Source: an uncultured Lachnospiraceae bacterium (lineage in GTDB: Bacteria > Bacillota > Clostridia > Lachnospirales > Lachnospiraceae). Taken from it: a DNA stretch of 32,049 nucleotides. The first letter of the stretch is position 1, and the number at the start of each line of letters is the position of its first letter. Under the pieces are notes generated by a model. The model had not been told where the DNA came from, did not search any database, and saw only the letters and a program-made list of their open reading frames with translations. The stretch is taken from assembly GCA_902774915.1 (NCBI GenBank), contig CACYKH010000019.1, positions 1-32,049 of the forward strand, written 5' to 3'. A program made the translations under genes and the position numbers. Positions 10,512 to 27,954 of the stretch are shown piece by piece.

Positions 10512-12200
10512 ATGCATGGTTATAGGAAAACTAACGGTCTCAGAAGACATATTCTTATAGTCGATGACGAAATGATAAACCGCGAAATACTTGGTAATCT
10601 TCTAAGCAAGGATTACGAAGTACATTTTGCCGAGAACGGAAAAGAAGCTCTCGACACTCTTCTTCTCCGCGAGCACATCTATTCACTTATACTCTTAGAT
10701 CTTTTAATGCCTGTCATGGACGGGTTCGAACTTCTGGATAACATCAAAAAGGATGAAAAACTAAGAAGCATTCCTATTATTGTAATGACTTCGGAAAAGG
10801 ATGCAGAGGTAACAAGTATTAAACTTGGTGCCGCCGATTTCATCACAAAGCCTTATGACATGCCAGAGGTCATTCTTGCCAGATGCCAGAGAATCATCGA
10901 GCTCCAGGAAGATAAGAGCTTAATTCATGCAGCTGAAAAGGATCATCTTACAGGTCTTTACACAAAAGACTTCTTCACAGAATACATTAAACAGATAGAA
11001 AAATATAATCCTGACAGAAAGATGGATGTTTCAGTTATAAATATAGAGCACTTCCATCTCATTAACGAGCTGTACGGACGTAAGGAAGGTGACAAAGCAC
11101 TTATATGCATCGCCGATACCCTCTCCGAACTGCTGGATGAAATGCATGGTATAGGCTCCAGAACTGAAGCAGATTATTTTTACATATATAACGAAAATAA
11201 TGATGACTATGATAAAGTCCTTCACAGGCTTTTGGATTCATTATCAAAGGAAATGCCTTCTGCCCATGTCCGTCTTCGTATGGGCGTCTACAAAGAAGTC
11301 GACAAAGAGCTTACAGCTGAGAACTGGATTGATAGAGCAAAGACAGCTTGTGACCGCATCAGAGGCGATTACAGCAGGCATATAGCTTACTATAATAATG
11401 AGTTCTATGAAAAATCCAAATATCAGGAAAAACTTATATCTGATATTGAAGGTGCTATCACTAATAAAGATCTGGTAGTCTACTATCAGCCAAAATATAA
11501 TATCCAGGGTGATGAACCACATCTACGAAGTGCTGAGGCACTTATCAGATGGAACCACCCAGAATTTGGAATGATAAGTCCAGGAGATTTTATACCTCTC
11601 TTCGAGAGTAATGGTCTGATACAAAAACTCGACCGTTATGTATGGAGAGAAGCCGCTGAGCAGGTTGGCAAATGGAAGAAAAAATACGGAATGTCAATTC
11701 CGGTTTCGGTTAATGTATCCAGAATGGACATTTATTATCCAAAGCTTAGAGATGATTTCAAAGCTTTGCTAAAGGAAAACGGTCTGGATAATAACGAACT
11801 GATGCTAGAGATAACTGAATCCGCATATGCTGATAATGCCGATCAATTAGTAAATGTTATTGATCAGCTCAGGAATGATGGATTCATGATTGAAATGGAT
11901 GACTTTGGTTCCGGCTATTCATCACTGAATATGCTCACCACCATTCCAATTGACGCGCTTAAGATGGATATGAAATTTATCCGTAATATGCAAAAGGATG
12001 AAAAGAGCATGAAGCTTGTGGAGCTCATCCTTGATATTGCAAAGTTCCTTCAGGTCCCAGTTATTGCAGAGGGTGTTGAAACTGAGGAACAGCTGCTACT
12101 TCTTAAGGAACGTGGATGTGATATTATCCAGGGCTATTACTTCTCAAAGCCAGTTCCACCTGAAGAATTTACTACATTTATTGAAAGGGAATTACAATGA
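10512..12200 (+). CDS. Response regulator with degenerate GGDEF and EAL phosphodiesterase domain
   Basis: This is a 562-residue cytoplasmic protein. The receiver (about 12-130) has Asp63 as phosphoacceptor. A GGDEF-fold domain (about 140-295) reads EADYF (219-223) at the signature and cannot be catalytic. The EAL domain (about 305-560) keeps the catalytic set: EALIRW at 342, NVS near 401, EITES at 433, DDFGSGYS at 463, the Lys of DALKMD near 484, AEGVETEEQ and QGYYFSKP. It should hydrolyse c-di-GMP to pGpG when signalled through the receiver. AGGAG lies about ten bases before the ATG. It is cotranscribed with surE and overlaps the HPt gene by four bases. Confidence 0.93.
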   Translation: MHGYRKTNGLRRHILIVDDEMINREILGNLLSKDYEVHFAENGKEALDTLLLREHIYSLILLDLLMPVMDGFELLDNIKKDEKLRSIPIIVMTSEKDAEVTSIKLGAADFITKPYDMPEVILARCQRIIELQEDKSLIHAAEKDHLTGLYTKDFFTEYIKQIEKYNPDRKMDVSVINIEHFHLINELYGRKEGDKALICIADTLSELLDEMHGIGSRTEADYFYIYNENNDDYDKVLHRLLDSLSKEMPSAHVRLRMGVYKEVDKELTAENWIDRAKTACDRIRGDYSRHIAYYNNEFYEKSKYQEKLISDIEGAITNKDLVVYYQPKYNIQGDEPHLRSAEALIRWNHPEFGMISPGDFIPLFESNGLIQKLDRYVWREAAEQVGKWKKKYGMSIPVSVNVSRMDIYYPKLRDDFKALLKENGLDNNELMLEITESAYADNADQLVNVIDQLRNDGFMIEMDDFGSGYSSLNMLTTIPIDALKMDMKFIRNMQKDEKSMKLVELILDIAKFLQVPVIAEGVETEEQLLLLKERGCDIIQGYYFSKPVPPEEFTTFIERELQ

Positions 12201-12538
12201 TTACAATAGACGCATTAAAAGAATATGGAGCAAATGTTGATGAAGGATTAGGACGCTGCATGGGAAATGAAGCCCTCTACCTGAAACTTGTATCAACCAT
12301 TCCAAACGAAGAAAAATTTAGTAAACTTATGGAAAGCCTGGAAGCCAACGATTTAGATTCAGCTTTTGAAAATGCTCACGCATTAAAAGGTGTAACTGGA
12401 AACCTGGCTCTCACACCACTCTATGATCCACTTGTAGAAGTTACAGAGCTTCTTAGAAGCCGTACAGAAATGGACTATACAAATCTAAAAGAGCTTATTA
12501 ATTCCAAGAAAGAAGAACTCGAAGAGCTTTGCAAATAA
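12197..12538 (+). CDS. Stand-alone HPt phosphotransfer protein
   Basis: This is a 113-residue, all-helical protein. His61 in the HALKGVTGNLAL motif is the expected phosphoacceptor of an HPt domain, which fills the whole chain (about 15-105). It overlaps the REC-EAL gene as ATGA, with AAAGGGAA as ribosome binding site, so it is probably made in step with that response regulator and could phosphorylate it. The convergent hybrid kinase at 12572-15667 has two receivers but no HPt, and this protein could complete that relay; the pairing is inferred from position only. Confidence 0.9.
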   Translation: MITIDALKEYGANVDEGLGRCMGNEALYLKLVSTIPNEEKFSKLMESLEANDLDSAFENAHALKGVTGNLALTPLYDPLVEVTELLRSRTEMDYTNLKELINSKKEELEELCK

Positions 12539-12542
12539 AAAA

Positions 12543-12573
12543 TGTGCCGCTTTTTAAGCGGCACAATTTTTTT
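12543..12573. terminator. Bidirectional terminator between the HPt gene and the signalling operon
   Basis: A perfect ten-base stem, TGTGCCGCTT (12543-12552) with AAGCGGCACA (12556-12565), has a three-base loop. On the plus strand seven T residues follow (12567-12573); on the minus strand the A-run at 12537-12542 gives a T-run. It therefore terminates both converging operons. Confidence 0.9.
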
Positions 12574-15500
12574 ATTCTCTGGTTGCTTCCCAAATGAATT
12601 CTTCCAGTGTCTGATAGAGTCTCTCTGGCTCAACCGGTTTTGAAAGGTGAGCATTCAATCCTACCTGGAGCGAACGCTGTACATCTTCATCGAATGCATT
12701 TGCTGTTAACGCAATAATTGGAACCTTCTTGGCATCTTCTCTTTCGAGTGCCCTGATTCTTCTTGTAGCCTCAAGTCCGTCCATTTCAGGCATTCGCATA
12801 TCCATAAGAATAGCATCATAGAAACCAATTTCACTGGATTCAAACTTATCCAAAGCGATTTTTCCATTCTCAGCTATTTCAACCTGCATGTCCTTCATTT
12901 CAAGAACCATTACCATTATTTCAGCATTTACCTGCATATCTTCTGCAAGGAGTATTTTCTTTCCAGCAAGATCAATCTTCTCATCTTCAGATCTTCCCTG
13001 CATAGTCTTTTTCTTAAATGCAGTCTTAAATTCTTCAATAACTACAGTTGCAAATAGTGGTTTAGGAATGAAGCTGTCAACTCCAGCCTGGAGGGCATCT
13101 TCAAGGACATCATCCCATTTATATGCTGTAAGGATTATTATAGCTGATTCATTTCCAACAATTTCTCTTATTCTCCTTGTGGTTTCCACGCCGTCCATTT
13201 CAGGCATCTTAAGATCCACAAGAATAAGATTATAAGGCGTTCTTCTGGCATGTTTTAACTTCACCATTTCAATGGCCTCAGCACCAGACGTTGCCACCTC
13301 TGCAGAAATGCCCGCCTTCTCAAGAACGATGGTTGCATGATCACAGGCAACCTTGTCGTCATCTATTATAAGAACGCTCATCTGTTCAGGTGTTATTTCT
13401 ACATCAAACCTTCTGTCATCATCTTTATCTACATCTGTAAGAGTAACAGAAATAAAGAATGTAGTACCTTCGCCCTTTTTACTTTCAACCTTTATTTCGC
13501 CATTCATCATCTCCACAATATTCTTTGTAATGGCCATACCAAGACCCGAGCTGCCATACTTTCTTGTGGTTGATTCATCTTCCTGAGCAAATGTATCAAA
13601 GAGATGAGGAAGAAACTCATCGCTTATTCCAATACCTGTATCTGCTATTTCAAAGAGAAGCGTTGACTTGCCATCATAACTCGCTGTTCTCTTTACGTCT
13701 AAATGAACGCCACCCTTATCCGTAAACTTAACAGCATTACCAATAACATTTATAAGCACCTGACGAATTTTTAGACCGTCACCTATATAATAATCATCCA
13801 CATCACTGCTTACATGACATTGATAATCTATTCCCTTATCCTGACACTGTCCACTGAACATAGTATTAATAGATTCAAGCAGCTGCGGGAAGGAAAACTC
13901 TTCACTCTTGATTATCATTCTACCCGACTCTATTCGAGACATATCCAGAATATCATTTATGAGACTGAGCAAATGGTCCGCAGAGTCTCCAATCTTACTA
14001 AGATAACCCTTTGTTTTTTCAGGAGTTTCCGGATCATTAAGGGCTATACTGTCCAGACCTATTATCGCATTCATAGGAGTTCTAATTTCATGACTCATAT
14101 TTGAAAGGAATGCAGTCTTGGCTTTATTTGCCTGCTCTGCAGATGCAAGCGCCTCGCTGAGGATTTCATTTCGTGACATCTCCTCACGCATTTCTTTATC
14201 AATAATAGTAAAGCCCACACCAACACTATGAACAATTCCATCATCTCTATTTTCAGCAAGTCGAACGCCTGCCATACGGAGCATTTCATAATACTCTATA
14301 TCCCCGTAACGAACCAGATATCTATATGTTATAAGACGGCTTTCAGTAAGCGAATTTCTAATATTATCTAAATCTATAAACTTAAGAAATCCCTCTCTGT
14401 ATTCTTCTGCAACATGATTCTCTGCATAATACTTGAATCTCTCAGTAAATTTGAAATGCTGTCCCTCTGGACTTTGATCCTCATCTAAAGGATCCTCTCT
14501 ATAGCAGACTGCATCATCCTCATCAAGATTTGCATAATAAACACTTCGATAATCTGATGCCATAGCAGTAATGAGATTATCCTGAAGAGCTCTCTTTTTC
14601 TCTTCTTCAATAAGCTTTTCCTGAAGATCAATTTTTTCCTGCATCTCCTGCTGTTTAACTCTGTTTTCTGCATCAGCAGTTTCTTTTTCAAGAAGAACTT
14701 TAGAGTTCCTTCTCATCTGATAAATAATAAATGCAAACAAAGCTATCAGACATATACTAAGGAGTATGGATTGCAAAATGCTTCTGACGATAATGCCGTT
14801 AGTGATAGAGCCTATCTCATCGCTAATAACACTTTCTCTGACAAGATATGTCAGCTGCCAGTCTGTTCCTTCAACAGGCTCAAAGCTCAGGATTTCACGG
14901 ATGCCATTATAGGTAAATGAAACTGCGCCACTTTTCCCCTCTGAAAATTCAGAAATAAATAGATCATAGGAATAATCAGGCGCATAATCCGCGGTCTTCA
15001 TAGCAGAAACAAGATTATCTTCTACTGCAAGACCTCCAAGAATAGTATTACTTAATGCCACACCATCCCGAGTGTAGATATTACAAAAAGTAGCATCATC
15101 CTCACCTGATTCCATGGATACACCAGAAAGCATTTCATCCATATCTTTTTCCATAAAGCAAACCTTAAGTGTATCTCCATTAAATGGAATATCTACTGGA
15201 ATAGCTATAACGACCTTTTTATCAAGACTGTCAATATTGAGTATTGAAATATCTGGTTCAGTTAAATTTTTATAATCAAAAGAATAATCATCAATATTAT
15301 CCTGAGGACCAAGCGCAGTATAAATAACGCCAGTCGTATCAACGAAAGCAAACTTCTCCAGCTTGTAGATTTTCTTCATTCTCGCCTGATACTCCTGAAG
15401 ATGCTCAACACTGTTTGTGTCATCATCTGTCATCAGGTTAACCGCAATCTCTATATCCTCAATACTATTTTGCAGATTATTCTCAACAACCTGCTCGCGT

Positions 15501-15667
15501 CTTCCAGCAAGCTCATCAAGATAAAGCAGACTGACCTTATGAACAGCATCCTCCGTATCTGCACTTGCGCGTCGACCCATTATCAGAGTTCCAATGACCA
15601 TGATTGCCAGAAATACTAACGCCCCAATTATATAAGTAGATGTTGTCTTTTTTTGTTGATTTTTCAA
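12572..15667 (-). CDS. Hybrid sensor histidine kinase with PAS-like domain and two receivers
   Basis: This is a 1031-residue protein starting at TTG 15667, chosen because a G7 tract lies six bases upstream and no ATG occurs before the first membrane helix. TM1 lies at about 14-32, an extracellular Cache-like sensor at about 35-285 and TM2 at about 293-318. A coiled coil leads to a PAS-like domain with SDYRSVYYANLDED near 371. HisKA has His526 (SHEIRTP), and the ATPase domain has N box near 643, DTGIGI near 676 and SSGLGM near 706. REC1 has Asp818 and REC2 Asp956. There is no HPt, so phosphate must leave through a separate HPt. It is the last gene of the operon, 49 bases after the lipoprotein gene with no terminator between. 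The extracellular ligand is unknown. Confidence 0.9.
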   Translation of the reverse strand: MKNQQKKTTSTYIIGALVFLAIMVIGTLIMGRRASADTEDAVHKVSLLYLDELAGRREQVVENNLQNSIEDIEIAVNLMTDDDTNSVEHLQEYQARMKKIYKLEKFAFVDTTGVIYTALGPQDNIDDYSFDYKNLTEPDISILNIDSLDKKVVIAIPVDIPFNGDTLKVCFMEKDMDEMLSGVSMESGEDDATFCNIYTRDGVALSNTILGGLAVEDNLVSAMKTADYAPDYSYDLFISEFSEGKSGAVSFTYNGIREILSFEPVEGTDWQLTYLVRESVISDEIGSITNGIIVRSILQSILLSICLIALFAFIIYQMRRNSKVLLEKETADAENRVKQQEMQEKIDLQEKLIEEEKKRALQDNLITAMASDYRSVYYANLDEDDAVCYREDPLDEDQSPEGQHFKFTERFKYYAENHVAEEYREGFLKFIDLDNIRNSLTESRLITYRYLVRYGDIEYYEMLRMAGVRLAENRDDGIVHSVGVGFTIIDKEMREEMSRNEILSEALASAEQANKAKTAFLSNMSHEIRTPMNAIIGLDSIALNDPETPEKTKGYLSKIGDSADHLLSLINDILDMSRIESGRMIIKSEEFSFPQLLESINTMFSGQCQDKGIDYQCHVSSDVDDYYIGDGLKIRQVLINVIGNAVKFTDKGGVHLDVKRTASYDGKSTLLFEIADTGIGISDEFLPHLFDTFAQEDESTTRKYGSSGLGMAITKNIVEMMNGEIKVESKKGEGTTFFISVTLTDVDKDDDRRFDVEITPEQMSVLIIDDDKVACDHATIVLEKAGISAEVATSGAEAIEMVKLKHARRTPYNLILVDLKMPEMDGVETTRRIREIVGNESAIIILTAYKWDDVLEDALQAGVDSFIPKPLFATVVIEEFKTAFKKKTMQGRSEDEKIDLAGKKILLAEDMQVNAEIMVMVLEMKDMQVEIAENGKIALDKFESSEIGFYDAILMDMRMPEMDGLEATRRIRALEREDAKKVPIIALTANAFDEDVQRSLQVGLNAHLSKPVEPERLYQTLEEFIWEATRE

Positions 15668-15716
15668 GACAATCCCCCCCAAAACATTCCACTTTTATGT
15701 TATAAATCTTATCACT

Positions 15717-17255
15717 CTACTCTTCTACAGAATCACTACTTACAGGGAATGTAAAGTATGTATCTGGATAAGGTTCATCTTCAAGTGTAAAGTGCCACCA
15801 CTCCTCATCCAGTGGTTTGAATCCATGCTTCATCATAGCATTTCTAAGAATCATTCTATTCTCATACTGTTCATCAGTGATTCCAGTATAGTCAGGGTGA
15901 GAAAGTTCTCCAAAATAATCAAAGGTTCCGCCCATATCCACCTCTTTCTCTGTTTCCATATCAAAGAGAGTAAGATCGACAGTACTACCTCTGCTATGAC
16001 CAGAGTGCTCTGCTATATAACCCTGATCGAAAAGCACTGATTTATCAAGTTCAGGATAGAAGTAATCCTTCATTTTTGTATCATCAACATCTTCAGCCCA
16101 TTCAACAAAATTATCTACAGCCATCTGAGGTCTATAGGCATCAAATATCTTAAGTCTGTAGCCCTGTTCTTCAAGATCATCACTAACCTCTTTGAGGGCA
16201 TCTGCTGCTTCCTTGGTAAGTAAAGCAACTGGTTCTTCATATCCATCTATTCTGTCACCAACAAAGTTATATGTTGAATAATATCTGATTTCAAGAATAG
16301 CATCCGGAACCGCCTCACTTAAAAGAACAAAATCAGATGAATCCTCCTCCGGAGTGGCTGCCTCCTTAGGCTCATCTTCCTTATCCTCTTCTTCATCCTC
16401 GTCAGTAGTATCCTTCTCAACCTTTTCAATATCCTCAGATTGATCTATAGTAAGGTCAAAGTCCGCGAACATCTCATCATCCGGAAGTGCCATCTCAAAA
16501 CCATCTGTAACATCCATTCCCAGATCCGCTTTACCTATCTTAAGACCAAGTACATGACCACCCTGAGTTTTATTTGAAGAAACAAAATGCATATGCCATC
16601 CTGTCGCATTTAGATCTGACATATATGGTGGGCAATATAGGCCAACTACAGTTCCTTCAATATCTTCATAGTGGAAGAATGTCTGATCTGTCTCCAGAAC
16701 CTCTGCAAGAGGTTTATATGGTTCCTCTTGTGCATATTCACTTCTGACATTCATTTCATCGAATGTTCCATCTATACGAATAAAGTAGAATTTATTCTCT
16801 CCAAGCTCAGATACTTTTTGATTCAGTTTATCTTGTAGCGCATTAATATCATTCACTCCATTAAGTATATCTTTTACATCCTCATCAAAGAATGTAACAT
16901 TTGAAAATGGAATCATGGTATCATCCGAAACCTCTTCCACACTACCGTCACCTGCTGCACGGTAAACCTTACCATCAACGGCAATCAGCTCTCCATTCAG
17001 CCCATCGAATGTTCCTATACCAATATCGCCTCTCTTTTTCAGATCAGCCACAGAAACACTACCATGGTAATCACCAAAAGTAAGCCCTTGCAGAAGTGAA
17101 ACCTGATAAACTGTATCCCTGTCATACTCAGCTGCTGCGCTTGTATTAGTAGCAACTTCCTCTGTGTTATCCTTCGCCTGCTCCTTAGCACCACATCCCG
17201 TCAGACAAAGTGATATCGCTGTAACCAGTGCTACTAACTTTCCAAACTTTTTCAT
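15717..17255 (-). CDS. Lipoprotein fusing acetolactate decarboxylase and VanX-type D-Ala-D-Ala dipeptidase
   Basis: This is a 512-residue secreted lipoprotein with signal peptide and lipobox LTGC (Cys21). Residues 48-280 are a full acetolactate decarboxylase (AlsD/BudA) domain. It has YQVSLLQGL, GDIGIGTF, Glu89 in GEL, Arg171, and the zinc ligands His221, His223 and His234 in WHMHF..GGHVLGL; this enzyme converts acetolactate to acetoin. A very acidic linker (about 272-306) leads to a peptidase M15D domain (310-505) with Arg375 (AYRP), His420 and Asp427 (SGHSRGSTVD), and Glu485 and His488 (EWWHF), matching VanX. Both active sites look intact. The ATG overlaps the upstream kinase stop as ATGA, with AAAGGAG nine bases before. 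The single open frame argues against an assembly artefact. Confidence 0.9.
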   Translation of the reverse strand: MKKFGKLVALVTAISLCLTGCGAKEQAKDNTEEVATNTSAAAEYDRDTVYQVSLLQGLTFGDYHGSVSVADLKKRGDIGIGTFDGLNGELIAVDGKVYRAAGDGSVEEVSDDTMIPFSNVTFFDEDVKDILNGVNDINALQDKLNQKVSELGENKFYFIRIDGTFDEMNVRSEYAQEEPYKPLAEVLETDQTFFHYEDIEGTVVGLYCPPYMSDLNATGWHMHFVSSNKTQGGHVLGLKIGKADLGMDVTDGFEMALPDDEMFADFDLTIDQSEDIEKVEKDTTDEDEEEDKEDEPKEAATPEEDSSDFVLLSEAVPDAILEIRYYSTYNFVGDRIDGYEEPVALLTKEAADALKEVSDDLEEQGYRLKIFDAYRPQMAVDNFVEWAEDVDDTKMKDYFYPELDKSVLFDQGYIAEHSGHSRGSTVDLTLFDMETEKEVDMGGTFDYFGELSHPDYTGITDEQYENRMILRNAMMKHGFKPLDEEWWHFTLEDEPYPDTYFTFPVSSDSVEE

Positions 17256-19969
17256 AAGCTTGAACTCCTTTCGCCAAGTTTTTTACATATTTCTATATAT
17301 TCATTGATAAATGAATCTGCCTCTCCATAGATAAAAGCTATATCATTATCTCTTGCTGCAAATTCATGTTTTTTAGCTCTTTCACTGAATTCTTTCAAGC
17401 CAATAGTTGCCATTGAACTCTTTATAGAATGAGCATCTATCTTATATGCCTTTATATCTTTTTCTTCAAGGCTCTTTCTCATCCTCTCCGAACGTTCTGG
17501 CCACTCTCTTGCAATATCTCCTATAATCTCCAGGAGCATATCCTCTTCTCCGCCACAATAGCTGAGAGCCTCATCATAATCTAAGCCTTCAATATAGGAC
17601 AGCCTGTTCTTTAGTGTTCCTGTATCCTCTGATAAAACTTCCGCAGATGATTCTATTACCTTTTCCTTAGGAAGCATGTTCTTCACCATGTCTTCAAGGA
17701 CACTCGAATCTATAGGCTTTGTAAGATATTCATCAAAGCCTTCTTCAAGATACATCTTACGGCTTCCAGCTACAGCATTGGCTGTCAGAACTATTATCTT
17801 CGTTTTTTTATTAACAGATGCCTCATCCTTTCTGATGATGTGAAGAGCTTCAATTCCATCCGGTTCTGGCATCATATGATCCATGAGAATCAGATCGTAT
17901 TTCTTTTCCTTGCAAAGCTCTATAGCCTTTTCACCTGAACTGCAGAGATCTGGAACAATACCATTTCTCTTAAGGAATAGCTTTACAATTGTAAGGTTAG
18001 ACTGATTATCATCCACTGCAAGAATCTTAGCATCTGGCGCAGCAAAACTGCTTGATGGAGTTACAGTTGTCTGCTCGACTTTCTTCTCCATAAAGTCTTT
18101 TTCCAGGATTTCTCCCTCTTCAAATCTTACCGGAAGCTTAACCCAGAACTCAGAACCACTTCCGTATTCACTCTCTACTCCAACCTCTCCATTCATGGAA
18201 TCAACTATACTTTTAACAATCGCCAACCCGAGTCCTGTACCTTCAATATTAGCATTTGTCTTAACATCAGCTCTTGAAAATGCATCAAACAAGAATTCCT
18301 GATCTTCTTTTCGAATACCCTTTCCTGTGTCTTTAACGAGCAGACTAAGTCTGTATTTATCATCCAAACTCTCCCCGTCAACTCTTAATGTTACAGAACC
18401 CTTTTCTGTATATTTAACAGCATTATTTAAAAGATTGATTATAATCTGTCTGATTCTAAATTCATCACTTATAAGCTTGTTAGGCACGTCTTCACCTATT
18501 TCAACTTTAAGCTCAAGATTCTTTTCTTCCACTCTTTCATTTATGAGGGAAATGACATCATAAAGCATATCAGACATAAGGAAATCCGAATCCTTGATCT
18601 CCATCTTTCCAGATTCAATCTTAGTGAAATCCAGAACATCATTAACCAGCATAAGAAGCATATTTCCCGAGGTTTTGATGTTTCTCGAGTATTCCTCAAC
18701 CACTTTATCATTATTCTCTCTAAGGATCATCTCATTCATACCGAGAATGGCATTGATAGGAGTTCTTATCTCATGAGACATGCTGGCAAGGAATCTGGTC
18801 TTTGCTTCCGATATATCTATTGCATGCTGTTTTTCCTTATTTATCATTCTAAGATCATGAACTTGCTGGATTACAATAAACGTAAGAAGAAAAGCCAGGC
18901 CCGCCACCATGAAAATATATTCTTTAACGAATGAAACTTCCAGTATGACACACGTAAGCTCTATAAGACATCCAACAAGGAAACCAATAAAACCAATAAA
19001 TGTATAGTGGTAAGAAACTGTGTTTCCTCTAACAGCATCAATTATCAAAACAGCAAGGCCAGCTATTGCTAAAAAGACGAGGACTGCATTGGCCAAATCA
19101 ATCATATTGTAATATGGCACAATTCCTGTAAAGTGAAGTAATGGCCAGATTATCGCATTGATTATCGAAACAATCATTATGATGGACATGCTTTTGCCAT
19201 ATCTTCCACGCTGTATGGATGTAAGGTATTCGATCAGAGGTAGAGGAATAGTCAGACAAAGCATAAAACTTATGAGACCATTCACATGGTATACCCCAAA
19301 GACAAATGGAAATAGCATTGAATCTGTAATAAGCCAGGCCGCTATAACAAATATACTTAGTGCTCCATACATCATATCAATCTTCGTTCTGAACATTAAT
19401 CTGAGAACTATGCTCACAACAAATGATACAAAGGAAAAAATAAGAACAATGAAGGACAAAACAAACATATGACCCATCTTGTCAAACAAGTAATCAAATG
19501 AAGCAGAAGGAGTTCCAATAAAAATCTCCGGAACTTCCCTGTCTATATCAGCAACTGAGTGCCTTACTATCATGATCTCAGAACCCGAATCCTCTCGTTT
19601 AAGAGGGACCATCACATAGAATCTCCTAAATACACCTCCCGGCATATTTACATCTCTATTTTCTATAAAATCCTTACGAAGCTCACCATTAATATAAACA
19701 GTAACATCTCTTCTTGTATCAAAGTATAGATACTCATTGTCAGTTATATTCTGAGGTAGAGTAGAACTAATAGTTATCTCGCTATTCTCCCCTTCCTGCT
19801 CGTCCCAATCTTTCATGAGACGAACTTTTTCTTTTGGAATAACATCTCCTTTATTAATAAATCCATAATAAATAAAAACAAAGGCATTAAAGACAAGCAA
19901 AGCCAACAGCAAAATCTTTACTGCTGCATTGCATATATCTGATAGCCTTTGTTTCTTATTATTTTTCAT
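17252..19969 (-). CDS. Hybrid histidine kinase: 7TMR-DISM sensor, HisKA, HATPase, REC, HPt
   Basis: This is a 905-residue protein. The start is ATG 19969 (MKNNKKQ) because GGTGGGA precedes it and a longer frame would enter the upstream gene. One N-terminal helix and an extracellular beta-rich domain (about 40-160, DISMED2-like) are followed by seven membrane helices (about 165-370), the 7TMR-DISM layout. HisKA has His399, and the ATPase domain has a normal N box, DTGKGI and GTGLGL. The receiver has Asp697 (motif MPEPDG) and the HPt His847 (HSIKSSMATIG). It shares the REC-HPt tail of the kinase at 3510-6086 and is probably a paralogue. It lies 22 bases after the pseudo-kinase gene and four bases into the lipoprotein gene. 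The ligand is unknown; carbohydrates are suggested for DISM sensors in general. Confidence 0.92.
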   Translation of the reverse strand: MKNNKKQRLSDICNAAVKILLLALLVFNAFVFIYYGFINKGDVIPKEKVRLMKDWDEQEGENSEITISSTLPQNITDNEYLYFDTRRDVTVYINGELRKDFIENRDVNMPGGVFRRFYVMVPLKREDSGSEIMIVRHSVADIDREVPEIFIGTPSASFDYLFDKMGHMFVLSFIVLIFSFVSFVVSIVLRLMFRTKIDMMYGALSIFVIAAWLITDSMLFPFVFGVYHVNGLISFMLCLTIPLPLIEYLTSIQRGRYGKSMSIIMIVSIINAIIWPLLHFTGIVPYYNMIDLANAVLVFLAIAGLAVLIIDAVRGNTVSYHYTFIGFIGFLVGCLIELTCVILEVSFVKEYIFMVAGLAFLLTFIVIQQVHDLRMINKEKQHAIDISEAKTRFLASMSHEIRTPINAILGMNEMILRENNDKVVEEYSRNIKTSGNMLLMLVNDVLDFTKIESGKMEIKDSDFLMSDMLYDVISLINERVEEKNLELKVEIGEDVPNKLISDEFRIRQIIINLLNNAVKYTEKGSVTLRVDGESLDDKYRLSLLVKDTGKGIRKEDQEFLFDAFSRADVKTNANIEGTGLGLAIVKSIVDSMNGEVGVESEYGSGSEFWVKLPVRFEEGEILEKDFMEKKVEQTTVTPSSSFAAPDAKILAVDDNQSNLTIVKLFLKRNGIVPDLCSSGEKAIELCKEKKYDLILMDHMMPEPDGIEALHIIRKDEASVNKKTKIIVLTANAVAGSRKMYLEEGFDEYLTKPIDSSVLEDMVKNMLPKEKVIESSAEVLSEDTGTLKNRLSYIEGLDYDEALSYCGGEEDMLLEIIGDIAREWPERSERMRKSLEEKDIKAYKIDAHSIKSSMATIGLKEFSERAKKHEFAARDNDIAFIYGEADSFINEYIEICKKLGERSSSL

Positions 19970-19991
19970 TAAAATCCCACCAATTTTTTTG

Positions 19992-21716
19992 TTATAATAT
20001 CCAGTTCTTTTCATGGAAGTCATTTATTATATCAACAAGTTTTTTAGAGTTTTCTTCAATATTCTCTAAATAATTTCTTGTCTCATCATCCATTTTCTCG
20101 TCCTTGAGTGCTTTTTTATTCAGCTCAACAATATTATTAATAGAGGACAGTAATTCGTCTCCCTTATCAGAGAGGAAAGCTTCTCTTCCCTGAATAGCCA
20201 GAGTCTCTCGCACCTCATCATCAACATTTTCAATACCCAGGATGATATAGTTATTATCCTGCATACGGGATATTTTCATACTGACATAGAATGGACCGTT
20301 ATTCCCAATCTGTCTATATGTCATTACAAAAGTATCTTTCTGCTCTAAGGCATTCATAAGTGTCTTTCTTTTCATTGCCGAAAGGAAAGCATCTCTATCG
20401 TCAACAAACACCTTTTCAGAAAGCTCCATTTTACAATCACTAAAGAAATGCCATCCACGGCGAACCTCTGAGATTGTTTCATCCTCATCACCCTTGCGAT
20501 ACTGAATATATTCCTCCGTATCCGCATTGACATAGTAAAGATCCATATAGTCTCGAGCTAGTGTCTGTGCGATATTAGTGTACATCAGTCCCGAACTAAC
20601 AGCCTTTTCATAGGCTTCCTGTGTCATAGCCTGCTCATGCTGAATACGAATCATATCAGTAACATCCTGACCCATACCAAGAATGCAAAGCCTGCCCTCT
20701 GTATCTCTATATTTTATTTTTGTTGTCTGAATCTGCTTTTGATTGCCGGCCGCATCCGGAACATCCTCAAAATAAACATAAGGCTTTGAAAGCGAAAGAG
20801 CTATTTTGTCGTCTTTCACAAAAAGAGCCGCTGTTTCAGCATCAAATAAATCAGCATCTGTAAGCCCTATAACACCATCTGAATTCTTCTTTTGAGCATA
20901 CTCTGCAAAAGCCTGATTGCACGCCAGGTAAACACCTGTTTTCGCATCTTTTGTAAAAGTCATTCCAGGCATATTGTCAATGATAGAAATAAACCTGTTC
21001 TTTAATTCTGTGATTTTCTTTGTCTCTTCCCTTCCACGCCTAATTTCTTCTTTTTCTTCACTTGCAACAAAAGAATGAAGCATACAGGTTCCAAGCATAT
21101 AAGCTATAGAATAAATTGGAAGCAAAGGATAGAACAGCTGAATTAAAAGACAAACAGCCATAATAATACCGAATGAAGCAAGAATTCTAAACCTGGAACG
21201 TATTTCCTGCACTTTAGGAAACCTTATCATGGAATATATACAATATACCGAAATAGTAATAAGGAGAATAATCTGACAGACCAAACTGATATCTCGAACA
21301 GTCAGATCATGATAAACACAGTTTTTATCAACCACGAATAATACAGGAAAAAAAATGTTTAAAATAACAAGACATGTAATCACTCCCGCAAATGTATTTC
21401 CTGCAAATATTAAAAAGTAACCAAATCTATTATTCTCATCTAAGTAAGCCACTGTATACTGCGCCCAAAAGGCTATGCCCACAGCCATCGCAACAAAATA
21501 AATAGTAGTATCAATAAACAAAGCTGTTGAAAGCTTTTTACTATCGATTATCCCCCACAAAATATCTGTAATATAGTATACAAGAACAGCAAACAAAAAC
21601 CTCCTGTATACTTTCCATGCAGGTTTATTATATGAAACCTTCGGGTCAAGAAGGATATCCTGATTTACAATTAATAATACCAGGACCGCAAGCAGTCCTA
21701 TCACAGAATAATACAT
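19992..21716 (-). CDS. 7-TM PAS sensor ending in a DHp domain without the phosphoacceptor histidine
   Basis: This is a 574-residue protein. Seven membrane helices (about 1-220) precede a PAS domain (about 245-355, NMPGMTFTKD) and a second PAS-like domain (about 375-495, DYMDLYYVNADTEEY). The C-terminal 65 residues align with HisKA domains: AFLSDKGDELLSSINNIV lines up with the usual AFLSNMSHEIRTPMNAII, with Asp520 in place of the histidine, then two long helices ending in IINDFHEKN. No ATPase domain follows. It therefore cannot be a kinase, but it may dimerise or regulate the kinase encoded 22 bases downstream. The PAS pair is closely related to that of the upstream gene. AGGATAGGA precedes the ATG. 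Confidence 0.85.
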   Translation of the reverse strand: MYYSVIGLLAVLVLLIVNQDILLDPKVSYNKPAWKVYRRFLFAVLVYYITDILWGIIDSKKLSTALFIDTTIYFVAMAVGIAFWAQYTVAYLDENNRFGYFLIFAGNTFAGVITCLVILNIFFPVLFVVDKNCVYHDLTVRDISLVCQIILLITISVYCIYSMIRFPKVQEIRSRFRILASFGIIMAVCLLIQLFYPLLPIYSIAYMLGTCMLHSFVASEEKEEIRRGREETKKITELKNRFISIIDNMPGMTFTKDAKTGVYLACNQAFAEYAQKKNSDGVIGLTDADLFDAETAALFVKDDKIALSLSKPYVYFEDVPDAAGNQKQIQTTKIKYRDTEGRLCILGMGQDVTDMIRIQHEQAMTQEAYEKAVSSGLMYTNIAQTLARDYMDLYYVNADTEEYIQYRKGDEDETISEVRRGWHFFSDCKMELSEKVFVDDRDAFLSAMKRKTLMNALEQKDTFVMTYRQIGNNGPFYVSMKISRMQDNNYIILGIENVDDEVRETLAIQGREAFLSDKGDELLSSINNIVELNKKALKDEKMDDETRNYLENIEENSKKLVDIINDFHEKNWIL

Positions 21717-21722
21717 ACTGTC

Positions 21723-24700
21723 CTATCCTTTTTGCTTTTTTGCCTTTAGTACACTCTTGTTTTCATACATTAACTCATCTGCACGTTCATAAACAGGTGC
21801 TACACTCGAATCATTTTCAAACCTTGACATACCTACTGCAATAACAACGCCGCCACTACGAGTAGCTTCCTCATTATGCTGATGCATCTGTTCGATAAGC
21901 TCATCAATTCTGGCATAGTCACTTCCCTGAGAAAGAACGCAGAACTCGTCACCTCCGACTCTGAATACCGGACTTCTCTTAAAAGTAGTACAGATGATTT
22001 TGCATGCATCACGAAGATACTGATCACCAGCCTTGTGTCCCTCAGTATCATTAACCTTCTTCAGATCATTAACATCTAAAATAGTAATAGAAAAATCAGC
22101 AGCACGGTTCATTTCTATCTGTGCATTAATTCTCTCTTCGTATACCTTATAAGCATTTCTATTCTTTACGCCTGTAAGAGCATCGATATTGGCTTCAATA
22201 CGAGCCTGTGCAAGGCGTCTTCCATACTCTTCTTCTTGACGAACCTGGGCATCAATATCATTCACTCCAACAATAAGTCTCTGACCTTCTTTCTCCTCTA
22301 CCATAGCAGCCTTGAGCTGAACATAGCGAGGCTCACCATCCGTTTTTAGGCGGTAGCTAAGTGTAAAAATACCATTCTGCTTAACCTCTGTCAGAACATT
22401 ATCTCTTGTAAGTAATGATACAAATCTATTCTGATCTTCCGGATAAACTATTGATGAAGCGAGTTTTCTATAAGCCGCAAAGAAGTCTGTTCCTTCACTT
22501 GGAATCTCAAAGTTGTTAAATCCTGTTGTTGCACTAAATTCACGATAACTACCATTTTCAGGTTCAACAACATAAATACAGAAGAATTCACCTGCAAGTG
22601 CAGTTATTCTATTATATGCACCCTGCTCCTCGAGAATCTTCTGAGCCGCATTACGCTCCCTAAGTTCTTCATCTACATCAGTTATTCCAAGAATGATATA
22701 ACGCTCATCATCCTGCATTCTGGTAACTCTCATACTGGCATAACATGGTTTACCACTTCTTAAAATCCTGAATGTTGTCATAAACAATTCATTTTTATCC
22801 AGCTCAGCTAAAAGAGTTTTTCGATCCATGACGTTAGTCACCATTTCTCGATCTTCTTCATATACTAATTCATTAATTTCATCCACACATTGTTCAAAGA
22901 AATGCCATCCACGACGGAGTTCACTCAGGATTCCTGTCTCATTATTTACACGATATTCAATAAACTCCTCAGAATTTACATCAATATAGTAAAGATCAAG
23001 ATATCCATAAGCCAATGCCTGAGCAATATGAGTAAAGATGATTCCACTGTTACGAGCCTTTTCATATGACTCTTTCGACTTAGCATCATTTCTATATATT
23101 TTGAAAGAATCTGATGCCTCCTGGAACATTCCGAGCACACATAGCTTTCCATTAGAATCTGTATATTTTAATTTAGTTGTCTTAATTTGTTTTGAATTAC
23201 CATCCTTATCTGTCATATTGGTGAAGAAAATATATGGTTCATCCATTGAAAGCGCAACCTTATCATCTTCAACGAAAGCTGCAGCCGTTTCTTCATCAAA
23301 TAATGCATCAGGCGTAAGTCCAACAACCTCCTCCGGACTCTTCTTATGCGCATATTCTGCAAAATCCTGATTACAAGCTAAATAAACACCTGTTTCCGCA
23401 TCCTTCGTAAAATTCATTCCAGGCATATTATCCAGAAGTGACGAAATTGTTTGCTTAAGCTCAGCAATCTCCTCAGCCTCTTCCAAAAGCTGTTTCTGCT
23501 TATTAGCCCTTCTGTCAGCTTTCATCTTCTGAACAAGCAGGAAGATGATAATTGAAAATACTAAAATAAGACTGACAAAAACTATGAGCCAGTTATCCTT
23601 TAAAAACTTAGCGAAGGTAACCTTTTGATTAACGGTCATATAAGAAGCGAGCGCCGCATCCATCTCCTCGCTCTTTGTAATTATTGCAGTTTTATTTAGA
23701 AGAAAATAAAGCTCAGTATCCCACTTGTCTACCGCAAATGAAAATGGTAAAGACTCTCCTGTTGGGAAAGAATAAAGATTGTATTTATCTAAAGCATCTT
23801 CTGCCGTAGGAATTCTATATGAACTGACAAAAACACAGTCTGCATCACCATCTGATACAGCCTTATAGCATGCATCAAGGCCTGGATACTCTTCTCTGCT
23901 GGTCTTAGGATACAAATCCTTTGTGAACGTATCAATGTTCATCATTCCTTGGTTAATCGCAAGCTTAATGGTGCTTTCTTCAGAAATAGAGCGATTATCT
24001 GTAGCACGCATTATAGCGTTGATCTCGGTTTTCATAGCTGGATCAGTAAGTCTTATCCCCATCTGATCTGCTTCATAGCTACTAACATAAACAGGGAAAA
24101 TACAATCTACTTCACCAGATTTTAGTGCATCCAAAGCATCTTTTGTTGTATCAAAAGGAATAGCCTCAAACTCTACACTTTGACTATCCAGATTATTTTC
24201 AGCATGGGCCAGATAATCCTTTAATGCTCCCACCAACTCCCCTGATTTATCATCAAAATCACAGAATGGGAGATAATTATCACGATATCCAATTTTTATA
24301 GCGCCATGACTTTTAACCCAGTCCTCCTGAATTGGTGAAAGTAGCGCTGTAGTTCTCTCACTATATAGTCTTTCTTCAGATATTTTTTGACTAAAATATG
24401 GATCCTGATCCTGAATCTCAGCAAGTGCCATATTGAGTTCAGAAAGAAGATCAGGGCGGTTCTTATTTACCGCATAATAATAATCAGATCCTCCAATTCT
24501 GCTAACAGGAATCACGCCTTCAGAATTAAAAGAATAAGTAGTGGCATATCCATCAAGTTCACCTTGAACCACCTTTTCCATTGATACATCTTCTTCATCA
24601 TTAACCTGAACAATTTCAAAAGAAAGATTATTCTCTTCTTCCCATGTTTCTAAGAATCCCTGCTGCATACTATCTTTATTAACACCAATCTTTTTACCAT

Positions 24701-25124
24701 TCAGGGATTCCAGATTTTTAGAAGTGATTTCTCTATTATCCGCACTTATGTATATATAATAAGATTCCGTTCCCATAGGGAGATCAGGGTAAAGAATTTT
24801 ACCTTCACGTTCCGGCTTATAAGAAACATCACTAAGAAGATCAATCTCACCATCTTGAAGCATCTGCAAAAGATTAGGCCAGCTATCCTCTACATACTCA
24901 TAAGTCCAACCAGTATATGCTGAGATTTTTTGCTGATATTCGTAGTCAATACCACATCTTCTTCCAAATTCATCATAATAACAAAAAGAAGAATCGTACC
25001 ATCCCACACGAACAACCTTATGTTCAGCCTCCTGGGCGATTGTATCAAACGGTATTAAATTTATTACAAACGCAAAAAACAAGATAATTACAATAAACTT
25101 TTTAATCTTCTTTCTTGATTGCAT
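21723..25124 (-). CDS. Membrane diguanylate cyclase with two periplasmic-binding domains and three PAS domains
   Basis: This is a 1133-residue protein with an N-terminal signal/anchor helix (about 8-30). Two tandem extracellular solute-binding (PBPb/SBP_bac_3) domains follow at about 35-270 and 272-520; the first opens VVRVGWYDSSFCYYDEFG. A membrane helix lies at about 524-546 and a coiled coil after it. PAS1 (NMPGMNFTKD, about 575), PAS2 (GYLDLYYIDVNSEEF, about 720) and PAS3 (about 840-960) lead to a GGDEF domain with DALTGVKNRN and GGDEF at 1057-1061. The I-site position reads FKRS, so feedback inhibition is probably lacking. It should make c-di-GMP in response to small polar ligands such as amino acids. 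It is the first gene of the five-gene operon, with AGGAG ten bases upstream. Confidence 0.93.
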   Translation of the reverse strand: MQSRKKIKKFIVIILFFAFVINLIPFDTIAQEAEHKVVRVGWYDSSFCYYDEFGRRCGIDYEYQQKISAYTGWTYEYVEDSWPNLLQMLQDGEIDLLSDVSYKPEREGKILYPDLPMGTESYYIYISADNREITSKNLESLNGKKIGVNKDSMQQGFLETWEEENNLSFEIVQVNDEEDVSMEKVVQGELDGYATTYSFNSEGVIPVSRIGGSDYYYAVNKNRPDLLSELNMALAEIQDQDPYFSQKISEERLYSERTTALLSPIQEDWVKSHGAIKIGYRDNYLPFCDFDDKSGELVGALKDYLAHAENNLDSQSVEFEAIPFDTTKDALDALKSGEVDCIFPVYVSSYEADQMGIRLTDPAMKTEINAIMRATDNRSISEESTIKLAINQGMMNIDTFTKDLYPKTSREEYPGLDACYKAVSDGDADCVFVSSYRIPTAEDALDKYNLYSFPTGESLPFSFAVDKWDTELYFLLNKTAIITKSEEMDAALASYMTVNQKVTFAKFLKDNWLIVFVSLILVFSIIIFLLVQKMKADRRANKQKQLLEEAEEIAELKQTISSLLDNMPGMNFTKDAETGVYLACNQDFAEYAHKKSPEEVVGLTPDALFDEETAAAFVEDDKVALSMDEPYIFFTNMTDKDGNSKQIKTTKLKYTDSNGKLCVLGMFQEASDSFKIYRNDAKSKESYEKARNSGIIFTHIAQALAYGYLDLYYIDVNSEEFIEYRVNNETGILSELRRGWHFFEQCVDEINELVYEEDREMVTNVMDRKTLLAELDKNELFMTTFRILRSGKPCYASMRVTRMQDDERYIILGITDVDEELRERNAAQKILEEQGAYNRITALAGEFFCIYVVEPENGSYREFSATTGFNNFEIPSEGTDFFAAYRKLASSIVYPEDQNRFVSLLTRDNVLTEVKQNGIFTLSYRLKTDGEPRYVQLKAAMVEEKEGQRLIVGVNDIDAQVRQEEEYGRRLAQARIEANIDALTGVKNRNAYKVYEERINAQIEMNRAADFSITILDVNDLKKVNDTEGHKAGDQYLRDACKIICTTFKRSPVFRVGGDEFCVLSQGSDYARIDELIEQMHQHNEEATRSGGVVIAVGMSRFENDSSVAPVYERADELMYENKSVLKAKKQKG

Positions 25125-25293: not shown

Positions 25294-27954
25294 TTAATAT
25301 TGAACCAATAATTGATTTTTTATATTCTTGTAGTCATTCTCCAGATCACGGGCACTTAACATCTTAGAGTCCTCTCCTCTTATGATCAGCTGTATAAGCC
25401 CATCTGACGTTGCCACCGTGATATCGAAATTCTTAGAATTCTCTACTGTGAACCTGGCAATATACTGATCGGCAGTTTCAGCCTCCTTTGTATAGACCAC
25501 ATGCACTCCCATGTAGTCCAGCTTTTCTGTAAAATGCCCTCTCACGTTATAGGCATCGAAGACAACTATTATCTCCGTATCCTTCATAGCTTTATATTCT
25601 GACATCATTTCAAGAAGCTTAAACCTCGCAGCTTCAAGACTAAGAGATTGTCTATCAGCACTTGAACTTCCATCCTCCAAAAGAGACTTAAGATCAGCCC
25701 ATGCGTGAATAATATTATATCCATCCACAAGAAGGTACTTTCTTCTTTCAGCCGCATTCTTCCTGATTGCAGCATTCTTCCTGCTTCTGTTTTCCGCCTG
25801 AACTGTACTCTTACTGAGATATACCCTCTTTGTCCTTCGGTTCTCCTTACCTGCATTTGAATGAGTGGCACTCCTGAGAATATCATCTATCTCATCCGTA
25901 CCTATAGCCTGAAGGCCTTCCTCTAATGAGCTTTGTCCTCTCTCCTTTGCAAGCCGCAGATTCTCAGCCTCGCGAAGCAATCTCTCCTCCTCGCTCTCCT
26001 CATCCACATCCAGATAATCACTTTCTTTGGAAGGAAGATGCATAAGCTCCTCACATTCATACCAAGGAACATAATAGCCCGCTCCATGAGAAATAAAAAT
26101 ACTTCCCGAAGGATTATTCTTATCACTGTCCGGATCATAGCCTTTATCCTCTATGATTTCTTCCATTATTTGTTCAGGCATATCCTGATATCCACTGAAC
26201 TTTAGCTCAATAGTTCCTTGACCGGATGTAAACTGAGTAAGCTTAGACTGATAATCCGAAATGCATCTGGCCGGAGCAGTTCCCACAAGTGAACCATCTG
26301 CAGAAACTGTACAGCTACCACCCATATCAGAAATATCTGTCATAACGCGACCAACTGACTCAGCCGGAAGATTCACTACAAAATCATATACCGGTTCGAG
26401 AAGTAAAGACTCTGTTTTCATAAGCCCCTGTCTGATTGCCCGTCGAACAGACTCACGAAAATCCTGACTGTCTGTATGCTTCAAATGTGCTTTTCCTGCA
26501 ATCAAAGTAAACCTTATATCAGTAAGCTGAGCCCCCGTCAGTACGCCAACAGGCAGATGCTCAGTTATTGTAGAGATTATGGTTTTCTGCCAGTTAATAT
26601 CCAGATCATTTACGCTGAGATTACTTGCAACTTCAATTCCATTACCCCGGGCAAGTGGTTCCATAAGAATCTGTACCTCAGAATAGTGACGAAGTGGTTC
26701 AAAATGTCCATATCCGATAACAGGATATTTTATAGTTTCTTTATAAACAAAGCTGCCTTTAACAAAGTTTACCGATACATCAAATCTCTCTTTTATAGTT
26801 TCCTTCAGGATTTCCATCTGGAACTCACCCATCACAGAAACACTTACTCTGTCATCATCCGAAACCTCAAGCCCAAGCAGCGGATCCTCCATGGCAAGTT
26901 CTTTCAGTTTAGGAAGAAAAACTCTAAGAGGTACATCTATCGGTAACTCCAAATCGTATCTTAGTACCGGCTGACAAAGAGGTTGTTCCTCATCAAACTC
27001 TCCTCCAAGTCCCATTCCGGCATATGCACTCTCCAGGCCAACAAATGTAACAACATCTCCAGCTTCTGCCATATCCACATTTTCATATTTGCCACCACTG
27101 TAGCAACGTATCTGAGTTATCTTTTCACCTTCAAGACGTTCGTCGTCAATTTCATTTCTGACAGAGATACTTCCACCAGTTATCTTAGCGAAAGCAAGTT
27201 TATGTCCATCCTCATAACCCACCTTGAATATCTTAGCAAAAAAATCCTTTCTGTATTCACAGTCTGGGATGTACTGGGTAATTGTTTTAATAAGAAAGTC
27301 TACGCCAGTATTCTTTAGTGCCGAACCAAATATTACTGGATGGAACCTTCTACCGAAAATGAGATTTTCTATATCTTCATTAGAAAGATCCCCTTCCTCC
27401 AGATATTTTTCTATAGTGCTTTCAGATAACGCTGCTATATCTTCTTTGCTAGCACCTTCATACTTTAGGAATCCTTCGCCAAGTATGTCACTTAACTCTG
27501 CTGTTATCTCATCTTCCGACCTCTGACACATATCCATCTTGTTTACAAAAACAAAGTATGGAACCTTATAGCTTTTCAGCATGCCAGCAAGACGTTTTGT
27601 AGATGCCGTCACCCCATCCGGACCACTAACCAGAAGAACAGCGATATCAAGTATACCCAGCACTCTCTCCGCTTCACCTATAAAGTCTGTATGACCAGGA
27701 GTATCAATAATAGTAATCTTAATATCATCTCCCGAATCATTAAGCTCATCATCTTTATTTAACTTACAGATTGCCTGCTTAGAAAGTATAGTAACCCCTC
27801 TTTTCTTTTCTAGTGTTTCTGTATCCAAAAAGGCATCACCATTATCAACTCTGCCAGCACTTCTAATCATGCCTGTGTCAAACAGAAGACTTTCTGTAAG
27901 TGTTGTCTTACCAGCATCTACGTGTGCTAGGATTCCAAGACTCAGCTTCTTCAT
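25294..27954 (-). CDS. TetM-like translational GTPase fused to a C-terminal NYN (YacP/Rae1-like) nuclease domain
   Basis: This is an 886-residue protein. The GTPase has AHVDAGKTT (10-18), RGVTI near 52, DTPGH at 84-88, NKMD at 138-141 and GSALK as its fifth motif. EF-G-like domains II to V follow, with EPLRHYSE, a short domain IV and PARCISDYQSKLTQFTSGQG near 585. A charged linker (about 645-738) leads to a NYN domain (739-886) with acidic residues Asp744 (VDGYN), Asp800 (FDAY), Asp829 (ETADQYI) and Asp851 (TSDG), the metal-binding set of Rae1/YacP nucleases. TetM-class factors bind the ribosomal A site, and B. subtilis Rae1 cuts mRNA there. The fusion therefore suggests ribosome-directed mRNA cleavage, which is inference. 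It lies after a terminator and may have its own promoter. It should not be called tetracycline resistance on this evidence. Confidence 0.9.
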   Translation of the reverse strand: MKKLSLGILAHVDAGKTTLTESLLFDTGMIRSAGRVDNGDAFLDTETLEKKRGVTILSKQAICKLNKDDELNDSGDDIKITIIDTPGHTDFIGEAERVLGILDIAVLLVSGPDGVTASTKRLAGMLKSYKVPYFVFVNKMDMCQRSEDEITAELSDILGEGFLKYEGASKEDIAALSESTIEKYLEEGDLSNEDIENLIFGRRFHPVIFGSALKNTGVDFLIKTITQYIPDCEYRKDFFAKIFKVGYEDGHKLAFAKITGGSISVRNEIDDERLEGEKITQIRCYSGGKYENVDMAEAGDVVTFVGLESAYAGMGLGGEFDEEQPLCQPVLRYDLELPIDVPLRVFLPKLKELAMEDPLLGLEVSDDDRVSVSVMGEFQMEILKETIKERFDVSVNFVKGSFVYKETIKYPVIGYGHFEPLRHYSEVQILMEPLARGNGIEVASNLSVNDLDINWQKTIISTITEHLPVGVLTGAQLTDIRFTLIAGKAHLKHTDSQDFRESVRRAIRQGLMKTESLLLEPVYDFVVNLPAESVGRVMTDISDMGGSCTVSADGSLVGTAPARCISDYQSKLTQFTSGQGTIELKFSGYQDMPEQIMEEIIEDKGYDPDSDKNNPSGSIFISHGAGYYVPWYECEELMHLPSKESDYLDVDEESEEERLLREAENLRLAKERGQSSLEEGLQAIGTDEIDDILRSATHSNAGKENRRTKRVYLSKSTVQAENRSRKNAAIRKNAAERRKYLLVDGYNIIHAWADLKSLLEDGSSSADRQSLSLEAARFKLLEMMSEYKAMKDTEIIVVFDAYNVRGHFTEKLDYMGVHVVYTKEAETADQYIARFTVENSKNFDITVATSDGLIQLIIRGEDSKMLSARDLENDYKNIKNQLLVQY

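Follow-up and report, generated by a model that had tools for sequence, protein, structure and literature searches.

Acetolactate decarboxylases (ALDC) and VanX-type dipeptidases of the M15D family are both known enzyme families. The two structures that serve for comparison here are PDB entry 4bt2, which we take to be the ALDC of Bacillus brevis, an exported enzyme, and PDB entry 1r44, which we take to be VanX. A further relative, PcgL of Salmonella, is presumably periplasmic. PcgL is described as a D-Ala-D-Ala dipeptidase in two reports (PMC7933661, PMC3335776). The window analysed here, a stretch of 32,049 nucleotides from an uncultured Lachnospiraceae bacterium, encodes one putative lipoprotein in which an ALDC domain is followed by an M15D dipeptidase domain, and it is this domain architecture that is new. 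The initial annotation knew of no described protein with the pairing, and in the PMC literature, which leaves most subscription papers outside its coverage, no description of an ALDC joined to a dipeptidase was found.

The fusion gene occupies positions 15717..17255 of the minus strand as a single uninterrupted frame of 512 amino acids. It opens with a signal peptide (17193..17255, minus strand) bearing the lipobox LTGC with Cys21, read by eye and by motif, from which we infer secretion and lipidation; the protein is probably anchored at the cell surface. The ALDC domain (residues 49-280; 16416..17111, minus strand) is delimited by PF03306, TIGR01252 and the alignment to 4bt2, and the VanX-like M15D domain (residues 304-505; 15741..16346, minus strand) by PF01427 and the alignment to 1r44. 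Between them lies an acidic linker (residues 281-303; 16347..16415, minus strand) whose length and sequence vary among fusions, Asp and Glu making up 17 of the 30 residues in the region 280-309. In Pfam, AAL_decarboxy matches residues 49-269 (E = 6.6e-71, 238 bits against a cut-off of 25) and Peptidase_M15 matches residues 306-505 (E = 1.3e-39). The single frame, the lipobox, the highly acidic linker and the completeness of both domains had all been proposed in the initial annotation and are borne out, the last by Pfam, NCBIfam and phmmer comparison with the PDB.

Every catalytic residue named in that annotation is likewise present, with Glu280 and Arg375 as additions. The ALDC head matches 4bt2 with an E-value of 5.6e-45 (phmmer), placing Glu89, Arg171, His221, His223 and His234 opposite Glu65, Arg145, His194, His196 and His207, and Glu280 opposite Glu253, positions that presumably form the ALDC active site. 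The M15D head aligns with 1r44 over 197 residues without gaps (E = 1e-46, phmmer), so that His420, Asp427, Glu485 and His488 correspond to His116, Asp123, Glu181 and His184, and Arg375 to Arg71, which we take to be the His/Asp/His zinc ligands, the catalytic Glu and Arg71. These five residues are invariant in 36 sequences, and the head carries the full residue set of the M15D family PF01427 (zinc ligands, catalytic Glu and the Arg71 equivalent). Among NCBIfam models, the ALDC equivalog TIGR01252 (acetolactate decarboxylase) scores 213 bits, over its cut-off of 181. The VanX equivalog NF033115 (dipept_VanX) scores 213.8 bits, under its curated cut-off of 320, and the DdpX equivalog NF007557 scores 106.9 bits, under its curated cut-off of 176, which leaves the dipeptide specificity of the M15D head uncertain. 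A Pfam scan of 15 proteins of the window showed no vanH- or vanA-type domain, and the gene does not lie in a resistance cluster.

The initial annotation would have been refuted by absence of the fusion from related genomes; instead, of 61 genomes of the genus that were searched, counting the window's own, 15 contain the full fusion at 73-100% identity. Completeness in this set ranges from 58 to 100%, and absences are therefore soft; the remaining genomes carry M15 only or neither domain, and in two of the genus (G003 and G011) an ALDC lipoprotein occurs separately from any M15. All 15 fusions retain the 12 positions checked, which comprise the catalytic set and the lipobox Cys. Both domains are under purifying selection: in six pairs dN/dS is 0.04-0.10 for ALDC, 0.03-0.05 for M15D and 0.13-0.62 for the linker, values that are rough because dS exceeds 1 in several pairs. 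An assembly chimera was considered and rejected, since the full frame recurs in these 15 genomes. The eight fusion loci L001-L008, among 80 related loci, correspond to eight of the 15 genomes and are not independent of them; one, L006, appears to be the record titled Lachnospiraceae bacterium YSB2008, which is not labelled as a MAG. Beyond the genus, no further fusion was found in the order sample (392 genomes including the window's own; other ALDC frames of 232-316 aa, the shortest, at 232 aa, ending at a contig edge) or in the phylum sample (398 genomes including the window's own, with at most three candidates scored per genome; other ALDC frames of 276-305 aa). Mutual exclusion with a cytosol-type ALDC was also entertained and dropped: an ALDC matching at 34-41% lies elsewhere in 3 of the 15 fusion genomes and in 14 of the 46 others, a tally counted by hand on incomplete genomes that gives no clear pattern.

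We put at about even the prospect that the fusion works outside the cell, on a lipid anchor, as a two-headed enzyme, one head removing acetolactate and the other splitting D-Ala-D-Ala; its activity, substrates, coupling and role are predicted from the sequence. The ALDC head would convert extracellular acetolactate to acetoin and the M15D head would cleave free extracellular D-Ala-D-Ala to D-Ala, with the two heads folding separately, held by the flexible acidic linker and operating without channelling. The most likely role would be surface salvage or clean-up of small molecules, supplied by cell leakage, lysed neighbours and peptidoglycan turnover. In this genome an anabolic acetolactate synthase and IlvC score over cut-off and no second ALDC was found. 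With an anabolic synthase and no second ALDC, intracellular acetolactate would go to valine synthesis, which would leave only leaked or foreign acetolactate for the fusion to meet.

In gut bacteria the M15D module recurs in fusions with other secreted enzymes. A non-random set of 130 ORFs was gathered by similarity to the window's M15D, from which 8 duplicates and 22 ORFs whose best stretch fell short of 180 residues were removed before tree building (among the removed L018, a YkuD fusion whose M15 is split, and L073, a PAP2 fusion), leaving 100. Longer proteins with another domain account for 36 of the 100, the partner being ALDC in 12, PAP2 in 11, YkuD in 5, S66 in 4, HAD in 2 and an unknown lipoprotein in 2; one of the five YkuD fusions has a C-terminal YkuD and one an SBP_bac_3, and one of the two HAD partners is C-terminal. 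ALDC partners were assigned by phmmer with the window's domain and the others by sequence clustering, with Pfam confirming PAP2 in L043, L065 and L073, the S66 LD-carboxypeptidase in L042, L051 and L077, YkuD in L017, L018, L126, L133 and L135, and HAD, in both orders and barely over cut-off, in L019 and L134. YkuD comes first in L017, L126, L135 and L018 (in the last of which M15 is split over two frames) and M15D comes first in L133, L247 and L248, the latter two from the phylum sample; the YkuD match of L021 is under cut-off. L135 has the order YkuD-M15D-SBP3, the amino-acid-binding SBP_bac_3 domain being attached as well. Stand-alone M15D proteins with a lipobox are common and, together with the stand-alone ALDC lipoproteins listed further on, count in favour of the two-headed surface enzyme. 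Many titles of M15D-bearing records name ruminant gut sites and several phyla are represented, with the proviso that binning errors may underlie the phylum labels of MAGs, Methanobrevibacter in particular. M15D genes sit on two Methanobrevibacter-titled contigs (L031, L033), by either bin contamination or an odd transfer.

Such promiscuity is the main argument for the best surviving alternative, in which M15D joins many secreted proteins and the ALDC is a functionally unrelated partner with which it shares anchor and expression only. At least six partner families for M15D are consistent with this reading, as are a linker that is not conserved and the interchange of solo and fused forms within the genus. 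In the M15D tree (46 rows) the fusions fall into at least three groups interspersed with solo lipoproteins of the same genus. Several independent fusion events were considered on the strength of this split and set aside, the topology test being compatible with one origin (p-AU 0.135, or 0.41 with the solo protein L092 added). L092, a solo M15D lipoprotein from G023, is sister to the G428 fusion (L190) with support of 100/91; its nesting among fusions calls for at least one event of ALDC loss or M15D exchange, so that joint action of both heads is not essential. In the ALDC tree (30 rows) the fusions group with the genus's two ALDC-only lipoproteins (94/98), and ALDCs without a signal peptide fall apart from the fusion and lipoprotein group.

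Three observations weigh against an unrelated partner, which we consider unlikely on the whole. Firstly, the fusion is maintained in 15 genomes with both heads constrained. Secondly, ALDC and M15D are also adjacent as unfused genes in two other genomes: in G326, of another family, an M15D gene comes 41 bp after an ALDC gene that the contig end truncates, and in G077 an ALDC gene comes 51 bp after an M15D gene (longest frames). These are two of the 9 genomes besides the window's that carry both genes separately; none of the 13 congeners with ALDC and M15D apart has them adjacent, so that the genes are not adjacent in 20 of the 22. By a post hoc estimate about 0.02 adjacencies would be expected in 22 genomes (2 of ~2500 genes flank any gene) against 2 seen, and the adjacency makes a chance join of the pairing unlikely. 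An ALDC-like protein, L240, was left out of this count because its catalytic residues were not seen in the alignment, being misaligned or divergent. The earlier statement that the two activities have no known link needs softening in the light of these pairs. No signal peptide can be seen by eye in the G326 M15D or in either G077 protein, so these pairs would act inside the cell, which argues against a purely extracellular rationale for the pairing. Thirdly, on Selenomonas ruminantium plasmid pSRC2 about 2.6 kb separate an exported ALDC (47%) from a partial M15 match (42%).

The surrounding pSRC2 cluster (L153 8300-18575) also holds a second ALDC match, absent from the gene table, together with NlpC/P60, alpha/beta hydrolases and HAD. 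On plasmid pSRC1 a YkuD gene and amino-acid ABC transporter genes are each ~2.5 kb away from an M15 gene, and two Selenomonas ruminantium plasmids bear an M15 gene and an ALDC gene. Carriage of the fusion itself on plasmids was rejected, none of 624 matching records having a single place that covers 80% of the query, as was phage carriage, each of 13 phage records matching one domain only at 29-47% identity; IMG/VR yielded two M15 relatives at 45%.

The two-headed surface enzyme may also be set in a wider scheme. YkuD and S66 enzymes target the bond preceding D-Ala, and a cut of the pentapeptide there would free D-Ala-D-Ala, the presumed M15D substrate. D-Ala-D-Ala outside the cell could come from lysed cells or from such L,D-cleavage of pentapeptides, which would fit the YkuD and S66 partners, and several M15D partners would be families acting on the peptidoglycan stem peptide. 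As a tentative and rather doubtful extension, M15D would be a plug-in module passed horizontally among gut bacteria, those of the rumen above all: YkuD and S66 would free D-Ala-D-Ala, M15D would cut it and SBP3 would pass D-Ala to uptake, and the ALDC fusion would be the metabolic arm, tying D-Ala salvage to acetolactate in a way so far unrecognised. No paper on a D-Ala-D-Ala dipeptidase joined to YkuD was found in PMC, whose coverage mostly omits subscription papers.

An improbable alternative is that one head has been repurposed to another substrate, such as another 2-hydroxy-3-oxo acid or a competitor's D-amino-acid-containing peptide. The VanX score under cut-off is in keeping with this, as is the recurrence of stand-alone lipobox ALDCs, for which an acetolactate source is not obvious; these occur in G003 and G011 of the genus, in G278 and G423 of another genus of the family, and in G172, G287, G196 and G156 of family f11. 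Conservation of the checked catalytic residues and an ALDC score over the equivalog cut-off argue against it. In the order sample, stand-alone lipobox ALDCs are found in six genomes (L232, L234-L238) against one fusion, the window's own.

Metabolic coupling, in which D-Ala freed by M15D would be converted to pyruvate and on to acetolactate, and ALDC would yield neutral acetoin and so limit acid, is less probable still. Gene adjacency in both orders, including the G077 pair without signal peptides, would suit such a pathway, but the fusion's ALDC is outside and acetolactate synthesis inside, and in this genome neither AlsS nor the TIGR01121 D-amino acid transaminase was found over cut-off. The pyruvate-overflow idea of the initial annotation, faced with an anabolic acetolactate synthase only, finds little support.

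Finally, the fusion lies between two kinase genes on the same strand. HK1 (17252..20023, minus strand), a hybrid histidine kinase with receiver and Hpt, has a stop that overlaps the fusion ATG (ATGA); HK2 (12572..15682, minus strand; longest frame, TTG start), a hybrid histidine kinase with two receiver domains, begins 34 bp downstream of the fusion. HK2 is convergent with Hpt and RR-GGDEF-EAL genes (10512-15682), a cluster that recurs in the genus (L167, L168, L170, L178, L179). The window further encodes a 1133-aa protein (21723-25124, minus strand) with SBP_bac_3, PAS and GGDEF domains, one of several GGDEF proteins, and an 886-aa protein (25294-27954, minus strand) with EF-G-like GTPase domains and a C-terminal YacP-type NYN domain.

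In G016 and G444 the HK1 and HK2 orthologues stand together without the fusion (L197, L199), an ORF with a prepilin N-methyl motif lying between them in the former and a 917-aa ORF in the latter. Other congeners hold ten full-length HK2 matches at 72-81% identity between them, and in G034 and G028 HK2 and the fusion are on different contigs. Relatives of the window's kinase region are near the fusion in 3 of the 14 other fusion loci: G013 (an HK2-like neighbour at 54% and Hpt), G428 (an HK1 relative at 63%) and G451 (an SBP-GGDEF relative at 65% and an HK2-like fragment). The other 11 show no kinase-region neighbour in the available flanks, some of which are short, three fusion contigs spanning just 3.7-6 kb. 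A 56% relative of the 886-aa protein (TetM/YacP; L006 7623-10304 in YSB2008) adjoins the fusion in G009, where a remote HK2 relative (40%) lies ~6 kb away, and in G430 a PPK2 relative (84%) lies ~6 kb from the fusion. These arrangements suggest a region that is shared only loosely and has been rearranged, and not a fixed operon. The initial annotation had asked whether the fusion is conserved and always near kinases; conservation within the genus holds, but the association with kinases is not conserved. That the fusion produces or clears an extracellular signal read by the kinases on either side, as also proposed there, is therefore very improbable despite the ATGA overlap, the 34-bp spacing and the three loci with kinase-region relatives close by, because HK1 and HK2 are paired without the fusion in G016 and G444, no such neighbour is seen in the available, partly short flanks of the other 11 loci and hybrid kinases are abundant in the genus (32-116 first-look candidates per genome).

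Textbooks offer no link between the two enzymes, yet a group of related species carries them in a single putative surface protein and two other genomes carry their genes side by side; this suggests that selection lies behind the ALDC-M15D pairing. Also new here is the recurrence of the M15D domain as a fusion partner across gut bacteria; one dipeptidase module with at least six kinds of partner offers a way into how gut bacteria use the D-Ala of cell walls and lysates. Gut sequences annotated as 'VanX-like' should be read with caution, as many of these proteins carry an export signal and the window's lies outside any resistance cluster.

Compared with the described systems, the ALDC head belongs to the same family as 4bt2 and matches it at six active-site residues, whereas the 4bt2 enzyme (chain of 257 aa) is not known to have a lipid anchor or a dipeptidase domain. 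The M15D head shares its zinc and catalytic residues with VanX and DdpX (1r44) but differs in its lipobox and its ALDC partner and scores under both cut-offs; VanX is cytoplasmic and serves vancomycin resistance. PcgL, too, is a VanX-type dipeptidase, presumed to work outside the cytoplasm, but a single-domain protein of a Gram-negative. Also comparable are the other M15D fusions, in which an M15D 61-85% identical to the window's is joined to another apparently exported domain; they differ in the partner, which in the case of YkuD and S66 belongs to a peptidoglycan family.
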